Origin: Pantoea eucalypti
GTDB lineage: Bacteria; Pseudomonadota; Gammaproteobacteria; Enterobacterales; Enterobacteriaceae
Direction of reading: 5' to 3'
Assembly (NCBI RefSeq): GCF_009646115.1
Contig: NZ_CP045720.1
Location: 682,001-746,000, forward strand
Length of the DNA: 64,000 nt
Shown here: piece after piece, positions 37,178 to 45,150 of the stretch
Layout: every line of letters starts with the position of its first letter
Position numbering within the stretch: the stretch's first letter is position 1
The notes under the pieces: generated by a model
The model's input: only the letters and a program-made list of their open reading frames with translations
Told to the model about the DNA's origin: nothing
Databases searched by the model: none
Position numbers and translations under genes: made by a program

Positions 37178-37665
37178 GGCCGAGTCCTTTTAAGAAGATG
37201 TTAAATACAGATGTAAAGTCGGTGAATTATGCATCAAACATGTGCGTAATGTGAAGCCTTTTCGGCAAAATAAGCTATTTTATCTGATTGATTTAAATAG
37301 AATTATTTCGGAAATTGAATGCGACCAATTCTCATCCTGCATCATACTTTGCTGGCCAATTAATTCAGGGTAATCAGCACCATGATAGTGCGACCGGGGG
37401 TGTTCATGCTGGTGCAGGCGCTGCAGCAACAGGTCAAATAACCGCATTCTGATGACGACCCGAAAATATAACGTTGCGGTATAACAACGTTATTCTGAAT
37501 AAAAGTATATAGCCGGCATGAATAAAACGTCCCATCGCGACAGACGAGACACTAATAATCATATTCACAACTGCTCTGGCATAAATCCTGCTTGAAACTC
37601 ACTTCCCAACGTTGAAATTTGCAATGCCAGGGAATTTTCGGCAAGGCAGTTATCAGGAGAAAGAA
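37178..37665. other. Divergent spacer between ftnA and yjiH
   Basis: 488 bp between the ftnA start and the yjiH start. It holds both promoters. The one clear element is an inverted repeat at 37468-37493 (listed separately). No convincing ORF. Confidence 0.6.
37468..37493. promoter_or_regulatory. Inverted repeat upstream of yjiH, candidate operator
   Basis: ATAACGTTG (37468-37476) and CAACGTTAT (37485-37493) form perfect 9-bp arms with an 8-bp spacer (a 17-bp, about 1.6-turn, distance between arm centres). It lies about 170 bp before the yjiH ATG. No gene in the window is an obvious partner other than the RpiR regulator at 44.3 kb. Confidence 0.5.
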
Positions 37666-38334
37666 ATGTCAGACGAGAGTGTGGTTAATCCGGTGAAAAT
37701 GACGGCGACCAAAGGCAGTTATGTGTCGTTAATTTTTGCCATTCTGTTTTTTTCAGGGCTGTTTTATCACGTCGAGGGCCTTTCATGGTTGGGTGCGTTC
37801 GACTTCACCACCCTGGGCGGCAGCTTTGGTACCATGAAAGATCCCGCCAGTAACACCTTTCTGGGCGCTGGCGGACTCAGCGCCAAAGCGGGTTTCCTGT
37901 TTGCGCTGTCGCTGACGCCCACGGTGATGCTGGCGCTGGGCGTGCTGGAAATCTTCACCCACTATGGCGCGATTCGCGCAGCGCACCGGTTGCTGACACC
38001 TTTGCTTAAACCGCTGATGGGATTACCTGGCCATTGCGGTCTGGCGTTAATCACCGACCTGCAAAGCACAGATGCGGGCGCGGCATTAACCAAAGAGATG
38101 GCTGATCAAAAGCAGATCAGCAAAAAAGAGGTGGTCGTCATGAGTGCCTGGCAATATTCCGGTGCCGGGTTAATCAATAATTACTTCGCCATCGGTTCAG
38201 CGCTGTTCGCCTCCATGACACTGCCGATTATTATTCCGCTGTTATTAATGTTTGTTCTTAAATTTGTCGGTGCGGCGATAACGCGCGCTGTGTTAAACAG
38301 TGTTTATAAAAAGGATTTCGCTGATGGAAAATAA
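37666..38334 (+). CDS. yjiH: YjiH-like membrane protein (nucleoside-recognition/Gate domain)
   Basis: 222 aa (E. coli YjiH 227). ATG 37666 has AGGAG; an in-frame start at 37612 has none. Several membrane helices; motifs GFLFALSLTPTVMLALG and GLALITDLQSTDAGAALTKEMA are shared with E. coli. Gate-domain proteins of the YjiH/YjiG pair are thought to act as a two-part transporter, substrate unknown. yjiG follows with an 11-bp overlap. Confidence 0.87.
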   Translation: MSDESVVNPVKMTATKGSYVSLIFAILFFSGLFYHVEGLSWLGAFDFTTLGGSFGTMKDPASNTFLGAGGLSAKAGFLFALSLTPTVMLALGVLEIFTHYGAIRAAHRLLTPLLKPLMGLPGHCGLALITDLQSTDAGAALTKEMADQKQISKKEVVVMSAWQYSGAGLINNYFAIGSALFASMTLPIIIPLLLMFVLKFVGAAITRAVLNSVYKKDFADGK

Positions 38335-38797
38335 AATCGCAACCAGCAGTAATCCCTTTGATGTGTTTGTAACCGGCGCGCGTAAAGGCTTTCACATCGC
38401 CATTCATAATCTCATGCCGAATGTGGTGATGGCATATGTGCTGGCTGAGGTGCTGAATCTGCTCGGCATCATGCAGTTTCTCGGGCATGTTTTTGCGCCG
38501 GTGATGGGGCTGTTTGGTCTGCCGGGTGAGGCGATTACTGTGCTGCTCACCGCGTGGCTCTCATCGTCGGCAGGCACGGGTGTCGCGGTCAGCCTGCTGA
38601 CCAAAGGACTGCTGACCGGTGCGGATATTACGATTCTGGCCCCGGCGATTTTCCTGATGGGATCGCAGCTGCAATATATGGGGCGGCTGCTGGGCGTGGC
38701 TGATGTGCCCAAAAAATACTGGCCGCTGCTGATGCTGGTGAGCATCATTAACGCGCTGATCGCAATGTCTGTTATGCGTCTGTTTATTCAGGAGTAA
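38324..38797 (+). CDS. yjiG: YjiG-like membrane protein (Gate domain)
   Basis: 157 aa (E. coli 153). ATG 38324 lies inside the end of yjiH and has AAGGAT. Motifs ARKGFHIAIHNLMPNVVMAYVL, SSSAGTGVAVSLL and GSQLQYMGRLLG match the family. In E. coli the operon continues with iadA, isoaspartyl dipeptidase. Here an M20 amidohydrolase follows after 4 bp. Confidence 0.88.
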   Translation: MENKIATSSNPFDVFVTGARKGFHIAIHNLMPNVVMAYVLAEVLNLLGIMQFLGHVFAPVMGLFGLPGEAITVLLTAWLSSSAGTGVAVSLLTKGLLTGADITILAPAIFLMGSQLQYMGRLLGVADVPKKYWPLLMLVSIINALIAMSVMRLFIQE

Positions 38798-38801
38798 CGC
38801 T

Positions 38802-39905
38802 GTGTCTGAGGTTTTAGAGCATTACCACTATTTGCATGAAATTCCGGAGCTGGGTTTTCAGGAGGTGAAAACCTCGGCTTATATCGCGGACCAGCTGGAG
38901 AAAGCGGGCCTGAAGGTAACGCGTAACATCAATAACACCACCGGTATTGTGGCGGAGATCGACAGTGGTGTTCCGGGGCCGGTGCTGGCACTGCGCGCAG
39001 ATATGGATGCACTGGGCCACATCATTGATGGCGTGCCGTGCGCGCGCCACACCTGCGGTCACGACGGCCACTCATCGGTTGTGCTGACGGCGGCGACGGC
39101 GCTGCTGCAGGAGGGCACGGTGAAACGTGGCCGGCTGAAGATCCTGTTCCAGCCCGCCGAGGAGCTGGGTGCCGGGGCGCTGGCAATGATCGAAGGTGGC
39201 GCTCTGGATGATGTGGAGATGATTCTTGGCTTCCACCTGCGTCCGCTGGAGGAGTGTGTCGTCGGCCAGGCGGTGCCTGCGGTACTGTACTCCGCCTGCA
39301 GCACGCTCGAAGCCACCATCAAAGGCCAGCCCGCCCATGCGGCGCGTCCGCATCTGGGTGTGAATGCGCTGGATGCGGCCGTACAGGCAGTGCAGGCGGT
39401 TAACGCTATCCATCTTTCGCCCGGCCTGACCTGGAGCGTCAAAGCGACTCGCTTCCTGTGCGATGCGGGTGTCACCAACTCGGTGCCGGATGAAGCGCGC
39501 GTAGTCTGGGATCTGCGTTCGCAGGAGAACGGGCCGATGACGCTGCTGAAAGAGCAGGTTACGCGTGCCATCACTCACAGCGTGGCGGCACTGGGTGCCA
39601 CCGCGGAGGTCCGCGTGCTGAAAGAGATGCCCGCCGCCGAGATTGATGATGAGGCGACGGCGGTGATCCGCGCCGCCATCGTCGAGGTGCTGGGCGAAGA
39701 GGGCGCATTGTCGACCCGCACCACGCCGGGCAGCGAGGACTTTTTCTACTATCCGGTGAAGCGTCCGGGTGTGAAAGCGGGCTTCTGGGGGCTGGGTACC
39801 AACCTGACGCCAGGACTGCATCATCCTGATATGCGTTTTGATCTCAGCTCACTGGAAATTGGCGTGCAGATCTTTAAAGCCTGTGTCAGAAAGGTGCTGG
39901 GATAG
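38802..39905 (+). CDS. M20-family amidohydrolase / aminoacylase-type metallopeptidase
   Basis: 367 aa. GTG 38802 follows AGGAG by 8 nt. Metal-binding motifs are complete: ALRADMDAL, CGHDGHSS, QPAEELGAGA, GFHLRP and near the end LHHPDMRFD; the central dimerisation lid lies at about residues 165-280. Relatives hydrolyse N-acyl or amide bonds (hippurate, indole-acetyl-amino acids, N-acetyl-diaminopimelate). As third gene of yjiH-yjiG it probably acts on what they import. It converges on the DUF1989/ABC operon. Confidence 0.9.
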   Translation: MSEVLEHYHYLHEIPELGFQEVKTSAYIADQLEKAGLKVTRNINNTTGIVAEIDSGVPGPVLALRADMDALGHIIDGVPCARHTCGHDGHSSVVLTAATALLQEGTVKRGRLKILFQPAEELGAGALAMIEGGALDDVEMILGFHLRPLEECVVGQAVPAVLYSACSTLEATIKGQPAHAARPHLGVNALDAAVQAVQAVNAIHLSPGLTWSVKATRFLCDAGVTNSVPDEARVVWDLRSQENGPMTLLKEQVTRAITHSVAALGATAEVRVLKEMPAAEIDDEATAVIRAAIVEVLGEEGALSTRTTPGSEDFFYYPVKRPGVKAGFWGLGTNLTPGLHHPDMRFDLSSLEIGVQIFKACVRKVLG

Positions 39906-39949: not shown

Positions 39950-40621
39950 TCAGGCTGGCACCCACGGTCCGGCCAGTTGGGGTTGCGGAAATCCTCCTGT
40001 GAGAATACGCAGTTCCGCATCACGTGGGGTATTGTCGCCCGCCCCCTGAATGCTGACGATATCCTGCGGGCAGGCGGAAAAGGCGACATAGCAATCCATC
40101 TCGGCGCGAAGGATGATGTAGTCTCCCGGACGCGTCACAACCGGCAGCGTTTTTAGCGTCATGCCGTCTGGCTGCACCTGAATATTCATAAAGATATTAA
40201 ACGACGCCAGATTGCCGTGCGGCAGCTTTACGCCCAGCGCCGCCATACTCTCAAACAGATTGTCATGGCAGTTTCGGTGCGGTTCGGTACACCCCAGAAG
40301 CTCATAACGGCGTGCATCGCATGCTGCCATAAAGGTGTCGTGTACGCCCGGCGAGGTATCCGCAACCAGCGTCAGGATAGGATGGCGCTGGCTGGTGATA
40401 AAACTGTCACCAACGTGAGGATTGAGGCGTTGGTTCCAGACGCGTGTCGCCTCCATCGACATATATTCAGTCAGGTCGTTTGCGTTATACGCCCAGCAAT
40501 CCACGACCTGTGTGCCGTGCAGATTAATGACCTGCACCGCTTCGCCTTTGCGCAGTAAAACGGCTTTACCGTAACGCGCGGGAATAAGCAGCGTATCGCG
40601 CTGCGGATATTCAGCTGACAT
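39950..40621 (-). CDS. DUF1989 protein (urea-carboxylase-associated / carboxyguanidine-deiminase family), paralog C
   Basis: 223 aa. Family motifs: VINLHGTQVVDCWAYN, CDARRYELLGC, HRNCHDNLFESM, SFNIFMNIQVQPDG and SACPQDIVSIQGAG. DUF1989 includes the two subunits of carboxyguanidine deiminase, which act after guanidine carboxylase. Here the conserved HRNC-x-DN and CPQDI elements are present, so an active hydrolase is plausible. It is the last gene of the operon, 13 bp after a permease gene. No guanidine or urea carboxylase lies nearby. Confidence 0.82.
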   Translation of the reverse strand: MSAEYPQRDTLLIPARYGKAVLLRKGEAVQVINLHGTQVVDCWAYNANDLTEYMSMEATRVWNQRLNPHVGDSFITSQRHPILTLVADTSPGVHDTFMAACDARRYELLGCTEPHRNCHDNLFESMAALGVKLPHGNLASFNIFMNIQVQPDGMTLKTLPVVTRPGDYIILRAEMDCYVAFSACPQDIVSIQGAGDNTPRDAELRILTGGFPQPQLAGPWVPA

Positions 40622-40634
40622 AAGATTCTCCTGA

Positions 40635-41303
40635 CTAATGTGGCAAGGTGCGCCGGTAGCGCGTCATGCGAAATTCAATGCGGCGGATCAGCCCGTCGAG
40701 CAGGCTATTGAGTGTCCAGTAGCTGAGCGCTACGGTGAGGTAGATCTCCAGCGGAGCATAGGTCTCGGAGATCGCTTCCTTAGCTGCGTACATAAACTCC
40801 TGTACTGAGACGATGGAGAGCAGCGCGGAATCCTTGATCAGACCGATGAGCAACCCGACCAGCGGGGAGAGCATCTGTGGCAGCGTCTGCGGAAGTGCCA
40901 CATCACGCAACTGCTCCATCCGGCTCAGCCCGAGCACGCGACACGCCTCCCACTGACCGCGCGGCAGCGTCTCAATCGCACTGCGTATAACCTGGGCAAC
41001 GTAAGGGGCGTAGTAGAGCGTCAGCGCCAGCACGCCTGCCTGCGGCGAGCTGAGGGTGATGTTATAGTCTGGCAACACGAAATAGAGCAGATAGATCACC
41101 ACCAGCAACGGCAGCGCCTGGGTTAGCGCACTGTATAAACGCAACAGCTTTCGCCAGAAATGGGGAGCGCGCAGCATACCGATCGCCATAATGATGCCCC
41201 ACAATAACGAGCATAATGCAGCGACGGCGCAGAGTTGCAGCGTCACCGCCATCCCCTCGCCAAGTGAGGGCAGTGCTGTAAGAATCGCCTGCCAGTCCAT
41301 CAT
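40635..41303 (-). CDS. Polar amino acid-type ABC transporter permease
   Basis: 222 aa inner-membrane subunit with about five helices. The EAA loop is GQWEACRVLGLSRMEQLRDVALPQTLPQML, followed by GLIKDSALLSIVSVQEF, typical of the HisM/GlnP group. ATG 41303 overlaps the upstream permease stop by 4 bp. The pair forms the channel. No ATPase subunit is present between 39.9 and 45.2 kb. Confidence 0.92.
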   Translation of the reverse strand: MMDWQAILTALPSLGEGMAVTLQLCAVAALCSLLWGIIMAIGMLRAPHFWRKLLRLYSALTQALPLLVVIYLLYFVLPDYNITLSSPQAGVLALTLYYAPYVAQVIRSAIETLPRGQWEACRVLGLSRMEQLRDVALPQTLPQMLSPLVGLLIGLIKDSALLSIVSVQEFMYAAKEAISETYAPLEIYLTVALSYWTLNSLLDGLIRRIEFRMTRYRRTLPH

Positions 41304-41950
41304 AGGCGTTTCCCTCTGAGTTCCAGCCGGCGGGCAATGCGCATCAGCGGCAGCGCGATTAACAGATAGCCCGCCGCGACCAGCAGTAATACCTGGGTTG
41401 CCTCATAGGTACGTGCGATCACAATCTGTCCGGCGTAGGTCAGTTCGGTAAGCGCCACCACCGACGCCAGTGGCGTGGTCTTGAGCAGAATAGTAAATTC
41501 GCTCACCAGCATCGGCAGGCTCGATCGCACGACCTGCGGGTTGATTACATACCACCAGGTCAGCCACCGGCTCAGTCCCAGTGTGCGTGCCGCTTCGCGC
41601 TGACCGCGCGTCACCAGGCTCTGATTCACGCGCAGAATCTCAGCCACGTAAGCGCCACTATTGAATCCAATGGCGATCACCGCCGCCAGCATGGGATGTC
41701 CACCAAGACCAAGACGTGGCAGGGTGAAAAAGACCACAAACAGCTGCACGATGGCGGGAGTGCCGCGCATCAGGCTGATATAGAGGCGGCCTGCGCAGCG
41801 CCACAACCAGAAGCGGCGCAGCTGAAGAAAACAGCCAAGCTGGCCCATCACAAGGCTAAGCAGCGCCGCCAGCAGCGTGAGTGAGAGCGTCATCAGCAGA
41901 CCATGTCCCAGTTCGGGCAGAGCGCTGACCACCTGTTCATTCAGCCCCAT
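41300..41950 (-). CDS. Polar amino acid-type ABC transporter permease
   Basis: 216 aa from ATG 41950; a GTG at 41953 is one codon earlier and equally well placed after GAGG. EAA loop GQREAARTLGLSRWLTWWYVINPQVVRSSLP, then FTILLKTTPLASVVALTEL. It pairs with the next permease, with which it overlaps by 4 bp. Confidence 0.92.
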   Translation of the reverse strand: MGLNEQVVSALPELGHGLLMTLSLTLLAALLSLVMGQLGCFLQLRRFWLWRCAGRLYISLMRGTPAIVQLFVVFFTLPRLGLGGHPMLAAVIAIGFNSGAYVAEILRVNQSLVTRGQREAARTLGLSRWLTWWYVINPQVVRSSLPMLVSEFTILLKTTPLASVVALTELTYAGQIVIARTYEATQVLLLVAAGYLLIALPLMRIARRLELRGKRL

Positions 41951-41956
41951 CACCCA

Positions 41957-42604
41957 CTAATCCTCGTTAAAATCGAAAAGATTTTCCGCAACGGCAAGGC
42001 GAAGCGGCGCAGGCTGGTCATTACCCTCAATACCGGTATTGCAGGCAGAAACGACAAACTGCATATCCATGGTGACGCGGCAGGTAATCGCGTCGCCAGC
42101 CCGGGTCAGGTTGGGTTCGGGCAGTATCTCTCCCGCCTGCGTTAGTCTGACGTGCATGAAGAGATTGATGGGGTCTGGCAGCTTCGGTGCCCGGATGCCG
42201 AGACGCGACAGCTCGCGACTGACTGCCTCCACACACCCCTCATCCTGATACCCCCGCGAGGCCAGGAAGTCGCGCGTTGAGGCGGGCAGCAGCAGGTCAT
42301 GGCGCTTTACGCTATCTTTGCCCAGCACCATCATCGGGCGGCGGCGATTGTTTACCAGGCGCATGCCGGAGCCGAGCAGATAACTGTTGCTGAATACGCG
42401 GGTGTGATGAACAGAGAGCCATACCGCCGGATCCACAAGGCTGAACCCGAACAGCGATGCCACAGCACCCGGTGCCAGCGCGCTGATGCGCAGCAGCTGG
42501 CCCCGCAGAACCTGAATCGAACCCACACTGCCCGCCGCGACGGTGAGCGGGGCGGCAACCGAACGCGGTCCATCTTCTGTAAAACCTTCACGCATAAGCA
42601 GCAT
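41957..42604 (-). CDS. DUF1989 protein, divergent paralog B
   Basis: 215 aa. I chose ATG 42604 because GGAGGT lies 6 nt upstream; a long open frame extends further but inside the preceding gene. Unlike its two paralogs it lacks the HRNC-x-DN motif (the matching region reads GYQDEGCVEAVSREL) and the CPQDI motif (SACNTGIEG). It shares the fold pattern (DPINLFMHVRLTQAGEILPEP, AGDAITCRVTMDMQFVVSACN). This suggests a non-catalytic or structurally different partner, as in heterodimeric DUF1989 pairs. Overlaps the upstream DUF1989 gene by 17 bp. Confidence 0.78.
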   Translation of the reverse strand: MLLMREGFTEDGPRSVAAPLTVAAGSVGSIQVLRGQLLRISALAPGAVASLFGFSLVDPAVWLSVHHTRVFSNSYLLGSGMRLVNNRRRPMMVLGKDSVKRHDLLLPASTRDFLASRGYQDEGCVEAVSRELSRLGIRAPKLPDPINLFMHVRLTQAGEILPEPNLTRAGDAITCRVTMDMQFVVSACNTGIEGNDQPAPLRLAVAENLFDFNED

Positions 42605-43217
42605 GGGTGACCTCCGCAGGTTCGCTGTCATGGATCTCAATGGCGATCGGCGTGACCTGCAGGCCATTACCGGGAATGATGTCCTGAGGACAGGATGAGA
42701 CGGCGCAAATGAGATCGCACAGCGCCTCGAAGACGATCCTGTCACCGGCCTGACTGTGGGGATCGGTAACTTCCATGCGGCCATCGGCCGTCACCGGGCC
42801 GTTCTGAAACAGGTTGAAGGGTTCCGGCAATGCGTAATAGGTGATGCCGTGCGCCTTCATCCCTTCCAGCAGGTTATCGACGCAGTTGCGATGGCCTTCC
42901 ACACCGAAATCGACACTAAAACGGGTGCGATCGCAGGCCGGGACGTTGGCATCATGAATACCAATGGTGTCGGAGACGATGCGCAGCAGCGGCCGGTTTT
43001 CGCTGGACCAGAGTGAATCCCCCGGTCTGAAGAAAAGCGAGCGAAGATGCTGGCGGGTATGCACCGGCGAGAGTTTCTCATCATGATTCGCTGCATTCAC
43101 CGCAACGAAATCGGCAGCCTGCTGGCCCTCGCTGTCGATGATGATAATCAGCTGGCCTTTACGAACCAGAAAAGTGCGGCCGTGCCCGGCGGGTATGGTG
43201 AAAGAGAGAGGGCTCAT
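42588..43217 (-). CDS. DUF1989 protein, paralog A
   Basis: 209 aa. Motifs: IPAGHGRTFLVRKGQLIIIIDSEGQQAADFVAVN, ACDRTRFSVDFGVEGHRNCVDNLLEGM, EPFNLFQNGPV and SSCPQDIIPGNGLQ. The residues typical of active family members (HRNC-x-DN, CPQDI) are kept. It lies 3 bp after the binding-protein gene and overlaps the divergent paralog, so the two are probably translated together and may pair. Confidence 0.82.
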   Translation of the reverse strand: MSPLSFTIPAGHGRTFLVRKGQLIIIIDSEGQQAADFVAVNAANHDEKLSPVHTRQHLRSLFFRPGDSLWSSENRPLLRIVSDTIGIHDANVPACDRTRFSVDFGVEGHRNCVDNLLEGMKAHGITYYALPEPFNLFQNGPVTADGRMEVTDPHSQAGDRIVFEALCDLICAVSSCPQDIIPGNGLQVTPIAIEIHDSEPAEVTHAAYA

Positions 43218-43220
43218 CGC

Positions 43221-44048
43221 TTACTCCGCGGGAATGAAGTTGGTGGCGGGCACGGTAAAAGTGGTGCCGAGATAGTGCTTCTGCAGTGCAGCAAGTTTAC
43301 CGCTCTGCTGCATGGCCAGAATATGATCACTGATTGCCTTGTTCAGGCTGAGATCCTCTTTACGCGTGGCCCAGGCCATCCACTGCGAAGGGCCCACTTC
43401 TCCGGCCTGTACTAATTTGTCGGGATACTTCTTCACGATCGGTGCCAGCACCGCAATATCATCCAGCACAAAGTCAGCGCGTTTTGTCATCAGCGTACTG
43501 ACGGTTTGATCCAGCGTATCGACACTGATGATGGTAATGGGCGGTTTACCTGCTTTCTTCAGCGCCTCATTGAAGCTTTTCAGCAACTGCTCCGGCACGC
43601 TGGCGCTCTTCACTGCGCCACGCAGTCCTGACAGGCGCTCAGGAGAGAGTCCGGATTTGCTGATCTTTTCGGCGTCGCTTTTACGCATCAGGACACCGTT
43701 AACGGTTTTGCTGTAGGGCACGGTAAACAGCACTTTCTTCGCGCGCTCTGCGGTGACGTTGAGTGATGATCCTTCCGCGTTAAAAGATCCTGAGATCAGA
43801 CCGGGAAGAATGCCGCTGAAGGCGGTTTTCTGAAACACCAGTTTCACGCCGAGATCGTCGGCAAACGATCGCATGATGGCCACGCTGTAACCGGTGACCT
43901 CGCCATTATCACTGGTGTATTCATAGGGCGGGAAGGTCGGGTCGATGCCGACCGTGATTTTGCCGGCACTTTTAATGTCCGTTAGCGTATCAGCCTGCGC
44001 CGCACTGACGGCAAGCAGTGCGGCGATGAGCAGTGCAATTTTTTTCAT
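43221..44048 (-). CDS. Polar amino acid-type ABC transporter substrate-binding protein
   Basis: 275 aa, signal peptide MKKIALLIAALLAVSA with cleavage near AQA-DT (residue 20). SBP_bac_3 motifs: KITVGIDPTFPPYEYTSDNGEVTGYSVAIMRSFADDLG and ADFVLDD. The segment usually reading GxxDxxxSGMTIT is GSFNAEGSSLNVTAERAKK, so the ligand contacts differ from classical amino-acid receptors. First gene of the ABC/DUF1989 operon, behind a 250-bp spacer downstream of the RpiR gene. Confidence 0.93.
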   Translation of the reverse strand: MKKIALLIAALLAVSAAQADTLTDIKSAGKITVGIDPTFPPYEYTSDNGEVTGYSVAIMRSFADDLGVKLVFQKTAFSGILPGLISGSFNAEGSSLNVTAERAKKVLFTVPYSKTVNGVLMRKSDAEKISKSGLSPERLSGLRGAVKSASVPEQLLKSFNEALKKAGKPPITIISVDTLDQTVSTLMTKRADFVLDDIAVLAPIVKKYPDKLVQAGEVGPSQWMAWATRKEDLSLNKAISDHILAMQQSGKLAALQKHYLGTTFTVPATNFIPAE

Positions 44049-44298
44049 TATGGTGGTCCCTGGTATGGGTGAAGGTCACCTGTACCTGAGCAGTTTTTGT
44101 GCCACGTTGTAACAGTGATGAAGCAGATGGCTGATGCGCTACCTGCTTTTGTAAACAGAATCAGTGAGAAACGTGAGTTTCATATAATGATATTTATTTT
44201 TCTTTTGTTTCTGTGAGGAGGTTAAGAGGTCAGGCACGCCGGACAGCGGCGCACCTTTACAGGGCGTCAGATGAACAAAAATGCGTCAGCGTAGCGCA

Positions 44299-45150
44299 CT
44301 ATTCCAGCTCGTCGAGTTGCTGGTGCAACACCTCAATTGCGGCAAGGCGTTCGCTGCCGGCCTTACCTGAATGGCGTGCTACCAGCGAGCAAAGCAGATT
44401 ACAGACGCCGGAGAGCGCCACCGTGCTGTCGAAAATCAGAGTGCTATCGGTATGGCAACGCAGTGTCCAGCGCGCGTGGCGTGCAGGTTTTCCCGCCAGC
44501 GCATCGGAGAGATAGAGCATGGGAACCTGCTGCACGCTGAGTGCTGCCATTGCCGTATCCAGCGCGGGCATACGGCGGCGGAGACCGACGCAGATTGCCA
44601 TATCCTGCGGGCCGAGCGTCGCAAGCTGTTCGGCCAGAGAATCGCCCGCGCGTGGTAGTAGCGTAACGCTGGGATGAACGTGCAGCAGATTGCGATAAAT
44701 CAGGGCAGCAATAGTCTGACTGTGACGCCAGCCCAGCACCACGACGCGGCGCGCCTGCGCTATCGCCTCAACGCACGCCTGTAGTGTTTCCCCATCCAGC
44801 GAGCGGAAGGTATTGACCAGATTGGCAATCTCTTTTTCAAGATGCTGCTGCATCAGGCTGTCGAGTGGGGAAGCGCTGACGCCGGAGTGCAGATAAAGCG
44901 GCGATCCGCTGTTCTGCATCTCGCGCGCCTGACGACGCGCCGCCTCGTAGCTTTCATAGCCGAGATGACGAAAAAAACGGGTAGCGGTGGCTTTGGAGAC
45001 GCCTGCGCTCTGCGCCAGTTCTGTGGCAGTATTCATCGCCAGCTGGCCGGGAGCTGCGAGCAGCACCTCCGCCAGCCGTTGTTCGTGAAGGGAAAGCTCA
45101 TCCCAGTATTGTCGAATACGGCCCTCGAGGGGGACCGGTTTGGCGCTCAT
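44299..45150 (-). CDS. RpiR-family transcriptional regulator (HTH + SIS domain)
   Basis: 283 aa. ATG 45150 has AGGGA; the frame extends 30 codons further without a ribosome site. HTH-6 domain (residues about 10-85: LSLHEQRLAEVLLAAPGQLAMNTATELAQSAGVSKATATRFFRHLGY), then a SIS phosphosugar-binding domain (about 120-260). RpiR proteins usually sense sugar phosphates or, in some, purine or amino-acid products. It lies upstream of and on the same strand as the ABC/DUF1989 operon, so it is its likely regulator. Confidence 0.9.
   Translation of the reverse strand: MSAKPVPLEGRIRQYWDELSLHEQRLAEVLLAAPGQLAMNTATELAQSAGVSKATATRFFRHLGYESYEAARRQAREMQNSGSPLYLHSGVSASPLDSLMQQHLEKEIANLVNTFRSLDGETLQACVEAIAQARRVVVLGWRHSQTIAALIYRNLLHVHPSVTLLPRAGDSLAEQLATLGPQDMAICVGLRRRMPALDTAMAALSVQQVPMLYLSDALAGKPARHARWTLRCHTDSTLIFDSTVALSGVCNLLCSLVARHSGKAGSERLAAIEVLHQQLDELE

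Follow-up and report, generated by a model that had tools for sequence, protein, structure and literature searches.

The stretch of DNA analyzed here (64,000 nucleotides of Pantoea eucalypti contig NZ_CP045720.1, hereafter the window) encodes on its minus strand, from position 45150 to 39950, an operon of seven genes that brings together a regulator of the RpiR family, parts of an ATP-binding cassette (ABC) importer and three different proteins of the DUF1989 family, here termed A, B and C. The first gene codes for the RpiR-family regulator with HTH_6 and SIS domains (44299..45150), whose likely start, as read from the translation, is the ATG at 45150 rather than that of a longer TTG-initiated open reading frame. 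It is followed by a family-3, i.e. amino-acid type, periplasmic binding protein (43221..44048; PF00497, 111.7 bits), A (42588..43217), B (41957..42604), the amino-acid type permeases P1 (41300..41953; PF00528, 60.3 bits) and P2 (40635..41303; PF00528, 93.8 bits), both above the cut-off of TIGR01726, and finally C (39950..40621). With the start of B at 42604 the A and B genes overlap by 17 bases, and those of P1 and P2 overlap by 4. All three DUF1989 proteins pass PF09347 (172 bits for A, 112 for B and 152 for C, against a cut-off of 27), and the family-3 binding protein together with the HEQRo-type permeases places the importer in the PAAT amino-acid type. This gene order and these coordinates agree with those of the first-pass annotation, which had been made from the sequence alone, each part now being confirmed by Pfam; its claim of an ABC transporter with neither ATPase nor carboxylase was likewise borne out, in that Pfam and profile scans found neither encoded inside the operon.

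A scan of 84,980 species genomes with an alignment of B recovered 32 loci, in every one of which all seven genes, including an ortholog of the RpiR-family regulator, are present in the same order (P1 of one Pseudomonas locus, L108, is masked by an overlapping open reading frame and was recovered separately). The set of A, B and C with this transporter, whose recurrence had been left as a question by the earlier annotation, is thus found in Pantoea, Rahnella, Rouxiella, Kosakonia, Enterobacter, Mangrovibacter, Winslowiella, Erwinia, a further enterobacterium, Vibrio xiamenensis and four Pseudomonas. The seven-gene unit is also present in 14 of 16 further genome stretches, the other two being distant relatives chosen as such. 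Within the genus B is present in 27 of 61 genomes, with C at 84% identity or more in exactly those 27, each of which also has a second, A-like match; farther out, B orthologs of at least 70% identity occur in 3 of 198 genomes of the family, in the source genome only among 369 of the class, and in 2 of 398 of the phylum. The upstream neighbor across the 32 loci is a PrfC gene in two, the same 506-residue protein in 12, the same 212-residue protein in four, various genes in 13, and lies off the contig in one. This patchy distribution at different chromosomal sites suggests that the module was transferred as one unit.

The region upstream of the binding-protein gene carries a set of conserved signals, which we compared over 330 bases in 34 modules, including a more distant version from a Palleronia plasmid. 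A palindrome of the form GAAAC-N4-GTTTC (44168..44181 in the window), the proposed RpiR operator, is exact in 32 of the 34 regions, has one mismatch in Palleronia and in L105, and was seen in none of 3,400 shuffles. On the minus strand at 44090..44104 lies a sigma-54-type promoter, TGGCACAAAAACTGC (GG-N10-GC), and its form TGGCAY-N6-TGC recurs in 33 of the 34 regions, being absent only in Palleronia, against a chance of 0.2% per shuffled sequence. Since a lone match in the window is insignificant (3 found where 1.41 are expected), and since shuffling preserves nothing but base content and the loci are related to one another, it is the conservation of the pattern that constitutes the argument; in the Pseudomonas loci, the most diverged carriers among the 32, the sigma-54 form is kept in all four and the palindrome in three. 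Farther upstream, at 44282..44298 on the minus strand, is an NtrC-like inverted repeat, TGCGCT-N5-GACGCA, with four mismatches to the consensus, and repeats of this kind with at most two mismatches occur in 19 of the 34 regions as opposed to 3.7% expected per shuffled sequence. Together these would be signals typical of nitrogen-starvation control.

The closest PDB sequence matches of the three DUF1989 proteins, 3oru/3siy and 3di4, are structural-genomics entries whose names carry no function. More can be said from the DUF1989 domain of the TMAO demethylase Tdm, in which, according to PMC12560246, C263, C279 and C343 form a zinc site, H276 and D346 are proposed for iron, and D198 is implicated. 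By our own calculation, based on an alignment with a construct numbering offset of 22, their counterparts in A are C95, C112, C176, H109, D179 and D36, and all six residues are kept by both A and C in each of the 34 triads. In B the first metal-cysteine column is a serine and the histidine and first aspartate are lost in all 34 triads, and the second aspartate is lost in 33 (a glycine in 33 of 34); a cysteine is retained at the second column in 31 and at the third in 33. The earlier observation that A and C have the HRNC and CPQDI motifs and that B has neither therefore stands, with the refinement that B retains two of the cysteine columns in most copies. From the Pfam matches and this alignment we propose A as a catalytic subunit, B as its non-catalytic partner with a degenerate metal site, and C, which is also set apart in the tree described below, as a second enzyme. 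Given a metal-bearing A and a degenerate B, the pair mirrors CgdA/CgdB of carboxyguanidine deiminase, which PMC11271267 describes as one metal-bearing and one degenerate subunit. The site of A and C, judged from the aligned residues, is itself closer to the Tdm type than to CgdA: a CgdA-like protein of the same genome keeps the first aspartate and the three cysteines, with arginine and leucine at the histidine and second-aspartate columns, and all six residues are missing from its CgdB-like protein.

These observations can be accommodated by reading the module as a nitrogen-scavenging cassette under NtrC/sigma-54 control, with a borrowed ATPase, a hydrolase or deiminase formed by A and B, and a second cleavage by C, to which as a whole we would give about an even chance. 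Under nitrogen limitation NtrC and sigma-54 would drive the operon, with the substrate or a product exerting further control through the local RpiR-family protein. The binding protein and P1/P2, energized by the ATPase of another amino-acid importer, would take up an amino-acid-like compound bearing a guanidino or ureido group, from which the metal-bearing A and the degenerate B, as a heteromeric hydrolase/deiminase similar to CgdA/CgdB but with another substrate, would free ammonia, and C would perform a further C-N cleavage. Direct observation covers the seven genes and the way they recur together as a unit, the distribution of metal-site residues, the conserved upstream signals and the existence of an ATPase-bearing version. 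The control of expression, the borrowing of an ATPase, the pairing of A with B, the reactions and the substrate class are what we infer from them.

Contextual information provided several clues regarding the substrate. The sister DUF1989s of C are encoded in seven of seven cases together with one or two ureohydrolases of the arginase family and an amino-acid ABC importer complete with ATPase, in operons (L168, L172, L113, L053, L054, L187 and L188) with the same class of importer as the module; these operons have a ureohydrolase, an ATPase and a single DUF1989, whereas the module has A and B in place of the ureohydrolase. A reference ureohydrolase from L054 scores above the cut-off of the agmatinase model TIGR01230 (182.4 against 174.3 bits), and no published function for the DUF1989/ureohydrolase operons was encountered in the literature searched. 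In L053, L054, L187 and L113 the C-like DUF1989, ureohydrolase and ABC importer lie, by our own reading and BLAST, beside PxpA/B/C-like (5-oxoprolinase) genes. An allantoicase gene (TIGR02961, 448.5 and 452.6 bits, cut-off 277.9) begins 32 bases after C in L107 and 34 bases after it in L108, both of them Pseudomonas loci, and both genomes encode another allantoicase that is 73-75% identical to the module-adjacent copy. The Mangrovibacter locus L094 has, before rpiR, a BiuH-like gene of the isochorismatase family that falls below the cut-off of that model. In this family of binding proteins an arginine holds the carboxylate of the amino acid and an aspartate its alpha-amino group; the module proteins keep both, the aspartate being present in six of six as opposed to two of nine relatives compared. 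The ureohydrolase-linked sisters, the allantoicase, the isochorismatase-like gene and the conserved arginine and aspartate together point to a predicted substrate that is amino-acid-like and bears a guanidino or ureido group.

The same clues could also be taken to indicate a role in the breakdown of purine ureides, in which the module would import allantoate or a guanidino analog and the DUF1989s would stand in for the usual enzymes of allantoate and ureidoglycolate conversion or act ahead of them. Consistent with this, the allantoicase directly after C in L107 and L108 is a second copy in its genome, certain DUF1989 relatives occur beside M20 enzymes resembling allantoate amidohydrolase (L126 and L174) or a PuuE-like deacetylase below cut-off (L169), and another RpiR-headed operon of the Pantoea genome (L163) has an allantoate-amidohydrolase-like gene. 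However, an allantoicase adjoins only two of the 32 modules, and any allantoicase at all was found in three of the seven module-bearing genomes searched, leaving four without; a search of the source genome with PF03561 gave no match, but it gave none in the control genomes either and so does not establish the absence of the enzyme. Further, this route is, as is generally known, already covered by known ureide enzymes, and the aspartate in the binding protein, in its role of contacting the alpha-amino group, would be needless for allantoate. We consider ureide breakdown an unlikely function of the module.

Some of the operons just mentioned deserve description in their own right. L163 (G000:C1:3256000-3266500) combines an RpiR-family gene at its head with an amino-acid-type ABC importer including the ATPase, an aminotransferase and the allantoate-amidohydrolase-like gene (796.8 bits, cut-off 584). 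L174, from a Klebsiella pneumoniae plasmid, encodes a binding protein, two permeases, an ATPase, the M20 allantoate-amidohydrolase-like enzyme, a DUF1989 and a cupin, and is the one record inspected out of 19 Klebsiella plasmid records matched. In L169, L170, L173 and L175 a DUF1989 is clustered with an amidase, a deacetylase (PuuE-like and below cut-off in L169, the one scanned) and an oxidoreductase, with a cytosine permease also nearby in L169, L170 and L173; these clusters are possibly another undescribed DUF1989 pathway.

The residues shared with Tdm raise a second alternative, namely that A and C, like the Tdm DUF1989 domain, use their metal for demethylation or another non-hydrolytic reaction, with an N-methyl or N-oxide amino acid as the substrate. 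All six Tdm-site residues have counterparts in A and C, and for both proteins the best NCBIfam bit score is that of the Tdm model (150.2 and 104.1 bits). Nevertheless, these scores are far below its cut-off, set at 1100 bits for a protein of three domains. Tdm resembles the module in also having a second DUF1989-like domain, one without the cysteines (PMC12560246). A, B and C are stand-alone proteins of 209-223 amino acids with different neighbors, and the module has neither a GCV_T domain nor a folate gene. As the same residues are also found in the DUF1989s of the ureohydrolase operons, they do not single out demethylation, and we regard this alternative as quite improbable.

The first-pass annotation had noted that in the guanidine pathway two DUF1989 proteins act as carboxyguanidine deiminase beside a guanidine carboxylase, and the relationship of the module to that pathway was pursued across the whole genome. 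A profile search of the genome found five DUF1989 genes, namely A, B and C and a pair on contig C2. The latter pair is directly beside a gene of the urea-carboxylase family (C2:445426-449010) and is preceded by an ABC importer and by riboswitches of two guanidine classes (Rfam; Guanidine-I with 90.6 bits and Guanidine-II with 42.5 bits); at the window operon no Rfam riboswitch scored above threshold. Two carboxylases of this kind are present in the genome, and in the motif GAVDFTGD, matched by eye, the C2 enzyme has an aspartate and the one at C1:3489034 an asparagine. An aspartate in that domain is given as the mark of guanidine carboxylase in PMC11410670. By this residue, which was typed for these two enzymes only, the C2 carboxylase is of the guanidine type and the C1 enzyme of the urea type. 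The C2 carboxylase, the adjoining DUF1989 pair and the riboswitches thus constitute a complete and separate guanidine pathway.

The C2 pair passes the profiles TIGR03424/UAAP2 (330.6 bits, cut-off 284.7) and TIGR03425/UAAP1 (305.3 bits, cut-off 205.95), and A, B and C fall below both, with respectively 126.5 and 82.8, 51.3 and 53.0, and 88.5 and 47.3 bits. In a phylogenetic tree of 80 rows, in which A, B and C were each represented by 13 of 34 available rows, with Palleronia among them, and the deiminase by a single Cgd pair, A, B and C form three separate clades with supports of 100/99, 100/100 and 100/99. The branching order above these clades is unsure, as the Cgd pair attaches to the A branch with a support of 87/90 and a long-branch warning. 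CgdA and CgdB have been defined as two sister clades in a PF09347 tree (PMC11410670), and in our tree, with its one long-branched Cgd pair, A, B and C lie outside Cgd clade membership. As the profiles fail and the clades stand apart, A and B are not orthologs of the C2 pair, contrary to a possibility that the first-pass annotation had raised, namely that they might be CgdA and CgdB. A guanidine carboxylase elsewhere in the genome, which it had likewise anticipated, does exist, but it belongs to a different operon, which has a DUF1989 pair and riboswitches of its own. Comparison of the three proteins with characterized members gave a mixed outcome: the Cgd profiles failed, the Zn/Fe-site residues of Tdm are present in A and C but not in B, and the full-length Tdm match failed.

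The module and the guanidine system as described in PMC12186494 and PMC11410670 are alike in having a degenerate and a metal-bearing DUF1989, overlapping genes for the pair, an ABC importer in the operon and a place, predicted in the case of the module, in nitrogen assimilation. They differ in that the module has no carboxylase or allophanate hydrolase and no guanidine riboswitch, but has a third DUF1989, an importer of the amino-acid type, and RpiR and sigma-54 signals, and fails the UAAP1 and UAAP2 profiles. This bears on a third alternative, in which A and B would be a second carboxyguanidine deiminase working with the guanidine carboxylase of the genome. The shared subunit pattern (PMC11271267), the position of the Cgd pair next to the A clade, albeit on long branches, and the presence of a guanidine-type carboxylase here and, by bit-score bands, in 19 of 27 module-bearing genomes of the genus could be cited for it. 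It is very improbable, since none of A, B and C reaches the cut-offs of the profiles that recognize the genome's own Cgd pair, 8 of the 27 genomes are without the guanidine-type score class, guanidine riboswitches number zero at the window operon versus two at the carboxylase operon, A and C have the histidine and second aspartate that are absent from those columns in the CgdA-like protein, and the third enzyme and the amino-acid-type importer would be left unexplained. That the module is a copy of the guanidine pathway was rejected on the profiles with their positive control, the tree, the carriers that by bit-score band have no guanidine-type carboxylase, and the lack of a riboswitch.

With respect to the transporter, no ATPase is encoded inside the module in any of the 32 loci; L093 has, just upstream of it, an amino-acid-type ATPase accompanied by a binding protein and a permease of its own, and weaker ATPase matches lie farther out in L080 and L088. 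The plasmid of the alphaproteobacterium Palleronia encodes a version in the order binding protein, A, B, P1, P2, ATPase, C, RpiR, with identities to the window proteins of 45% for the binding protein, 58% for A, 43% for B, 68% for C and 39% for RpiR. This ATPase-bearing version supports the earlier claim that the permease pair needs an ATPase from elsewhere, and makes it likely, as the simplest reading, that the ancestor had one and that the gammaproteobacterial form lost it and borrows another. The Pantoea genome encodes many ABC ATPases, and the best 12 of 33 listed amino-acid-type matches are each near their own permease gene(s), with no orphan among these 12; hence one would have to be shared, as is known for ABC importers (PMC7658222). 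Of the six exact copies of the palindrome in the genome, the sole intergenic one is at this operon, the remaining five falling within reading frames, among them that of the binding-protein gene; thus, by the exact pattern, the search gave no ATPase belonging to this regulon, the presence of which had been proposed as a possible argument against a separate pathway. That the operon is a decaying and no longer functional transporter unit, as its lack of an ATPase in all 32 loci and the interrupted genes in a few copies might suggest, is the least credible of the alternatives, given that Enterobacterales, Vibrio and Pseudomonas alike retain its seven genes and promoter signals, that 12 amino-acid-type ATPases are available in the genome, and that such sharing is known.

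The module is flanked in the window by genes which we take to be prfC, osmY and yjjU on one side and an M20 gene, yjiGH and a ferritin gene on the other, and these flanks are common to the loci of Pantoea agglomerans and P. conspicua (L077 and L078). Convergent with the module, at 37612-39905, are genes for two Gate-domain membrane proteins (YjiH/YjiG-like) and an M20 amidohydrolase.

Returning to the nitrogen-scavenging cassette, several observations weigh against it. The fork that groups C with the ureohydrolase-linked sisters has a support of 92/89, which is below the starred level, and the allantoicase is confined to the two loci mentioned above. Two of the three cysteine columns are kept in most copies of B, which consequently may not be wholly non-catalytic. 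The NtrC-like sites are weak in the window itself, the Palleronia version has no exact match to either the sigma-54 form or the palindrome, and the exact palindrome shows no enrichment genome-wide, with 6 sites as opposed to 17 for a reversed control. Finally, module genes are interrupted in certain copies, namely P1 in L093 (Rouxiella silvae), the binding protein in L086 (Pantoea rodasii), and both RpiR and the binding protein in L049 (G228), for which draft-sequence error is a possible cause.

The first-pass annotation had proposed a separate, undescribed pathway for a small nitrogen compound. This proposal gains support from the comparisons above, as A and B are not orthologous to the genome's Cgd pair, the guanidine carboxylase has a separate operon, 8 of 27 module-bearing genomes lack its score class and, by the exact palindrome, no ATPase came to light in the same regulon, and to it are now added the guanidine carboxylase elsewhere in the genome, the two cysteine columns of B, the sigma-54 signal and the wide recurrence, which had gone unseen. 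Apart from carboxyguanidine deiminase and trimethylamine N-oxide demethylase, no DUF1989 function was met with in the literature searched, whose coverage excludes most subscription papers; the family itself is known, and the operon type with three DUF1989s is not described in that literature. We tentatively suggest that this seven-gene cassette, spread between bacterial families, represents an undescribed nitrogen-assimilation pathway, in which three DUF1989 paralogs, an A/B heteromer that evolved apart from CgdA/CgdB and C, might dismantle an amino acid carrying a guanidino or ureido group, using neither a ureohydrolase nor a carboxylation that depends on ATP. The module is small, with seven genes and one binding protein for ligands, and its pair of a metal-bearing and a degenerate subunit may have arisen apart from CgdA/CgdB. 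The conservation of this three-paralog operon, with its nitrogen-control type of DNA signals, in plant-associated and environmental bacteria points to a scavenged nitrogen source that nobody has named.

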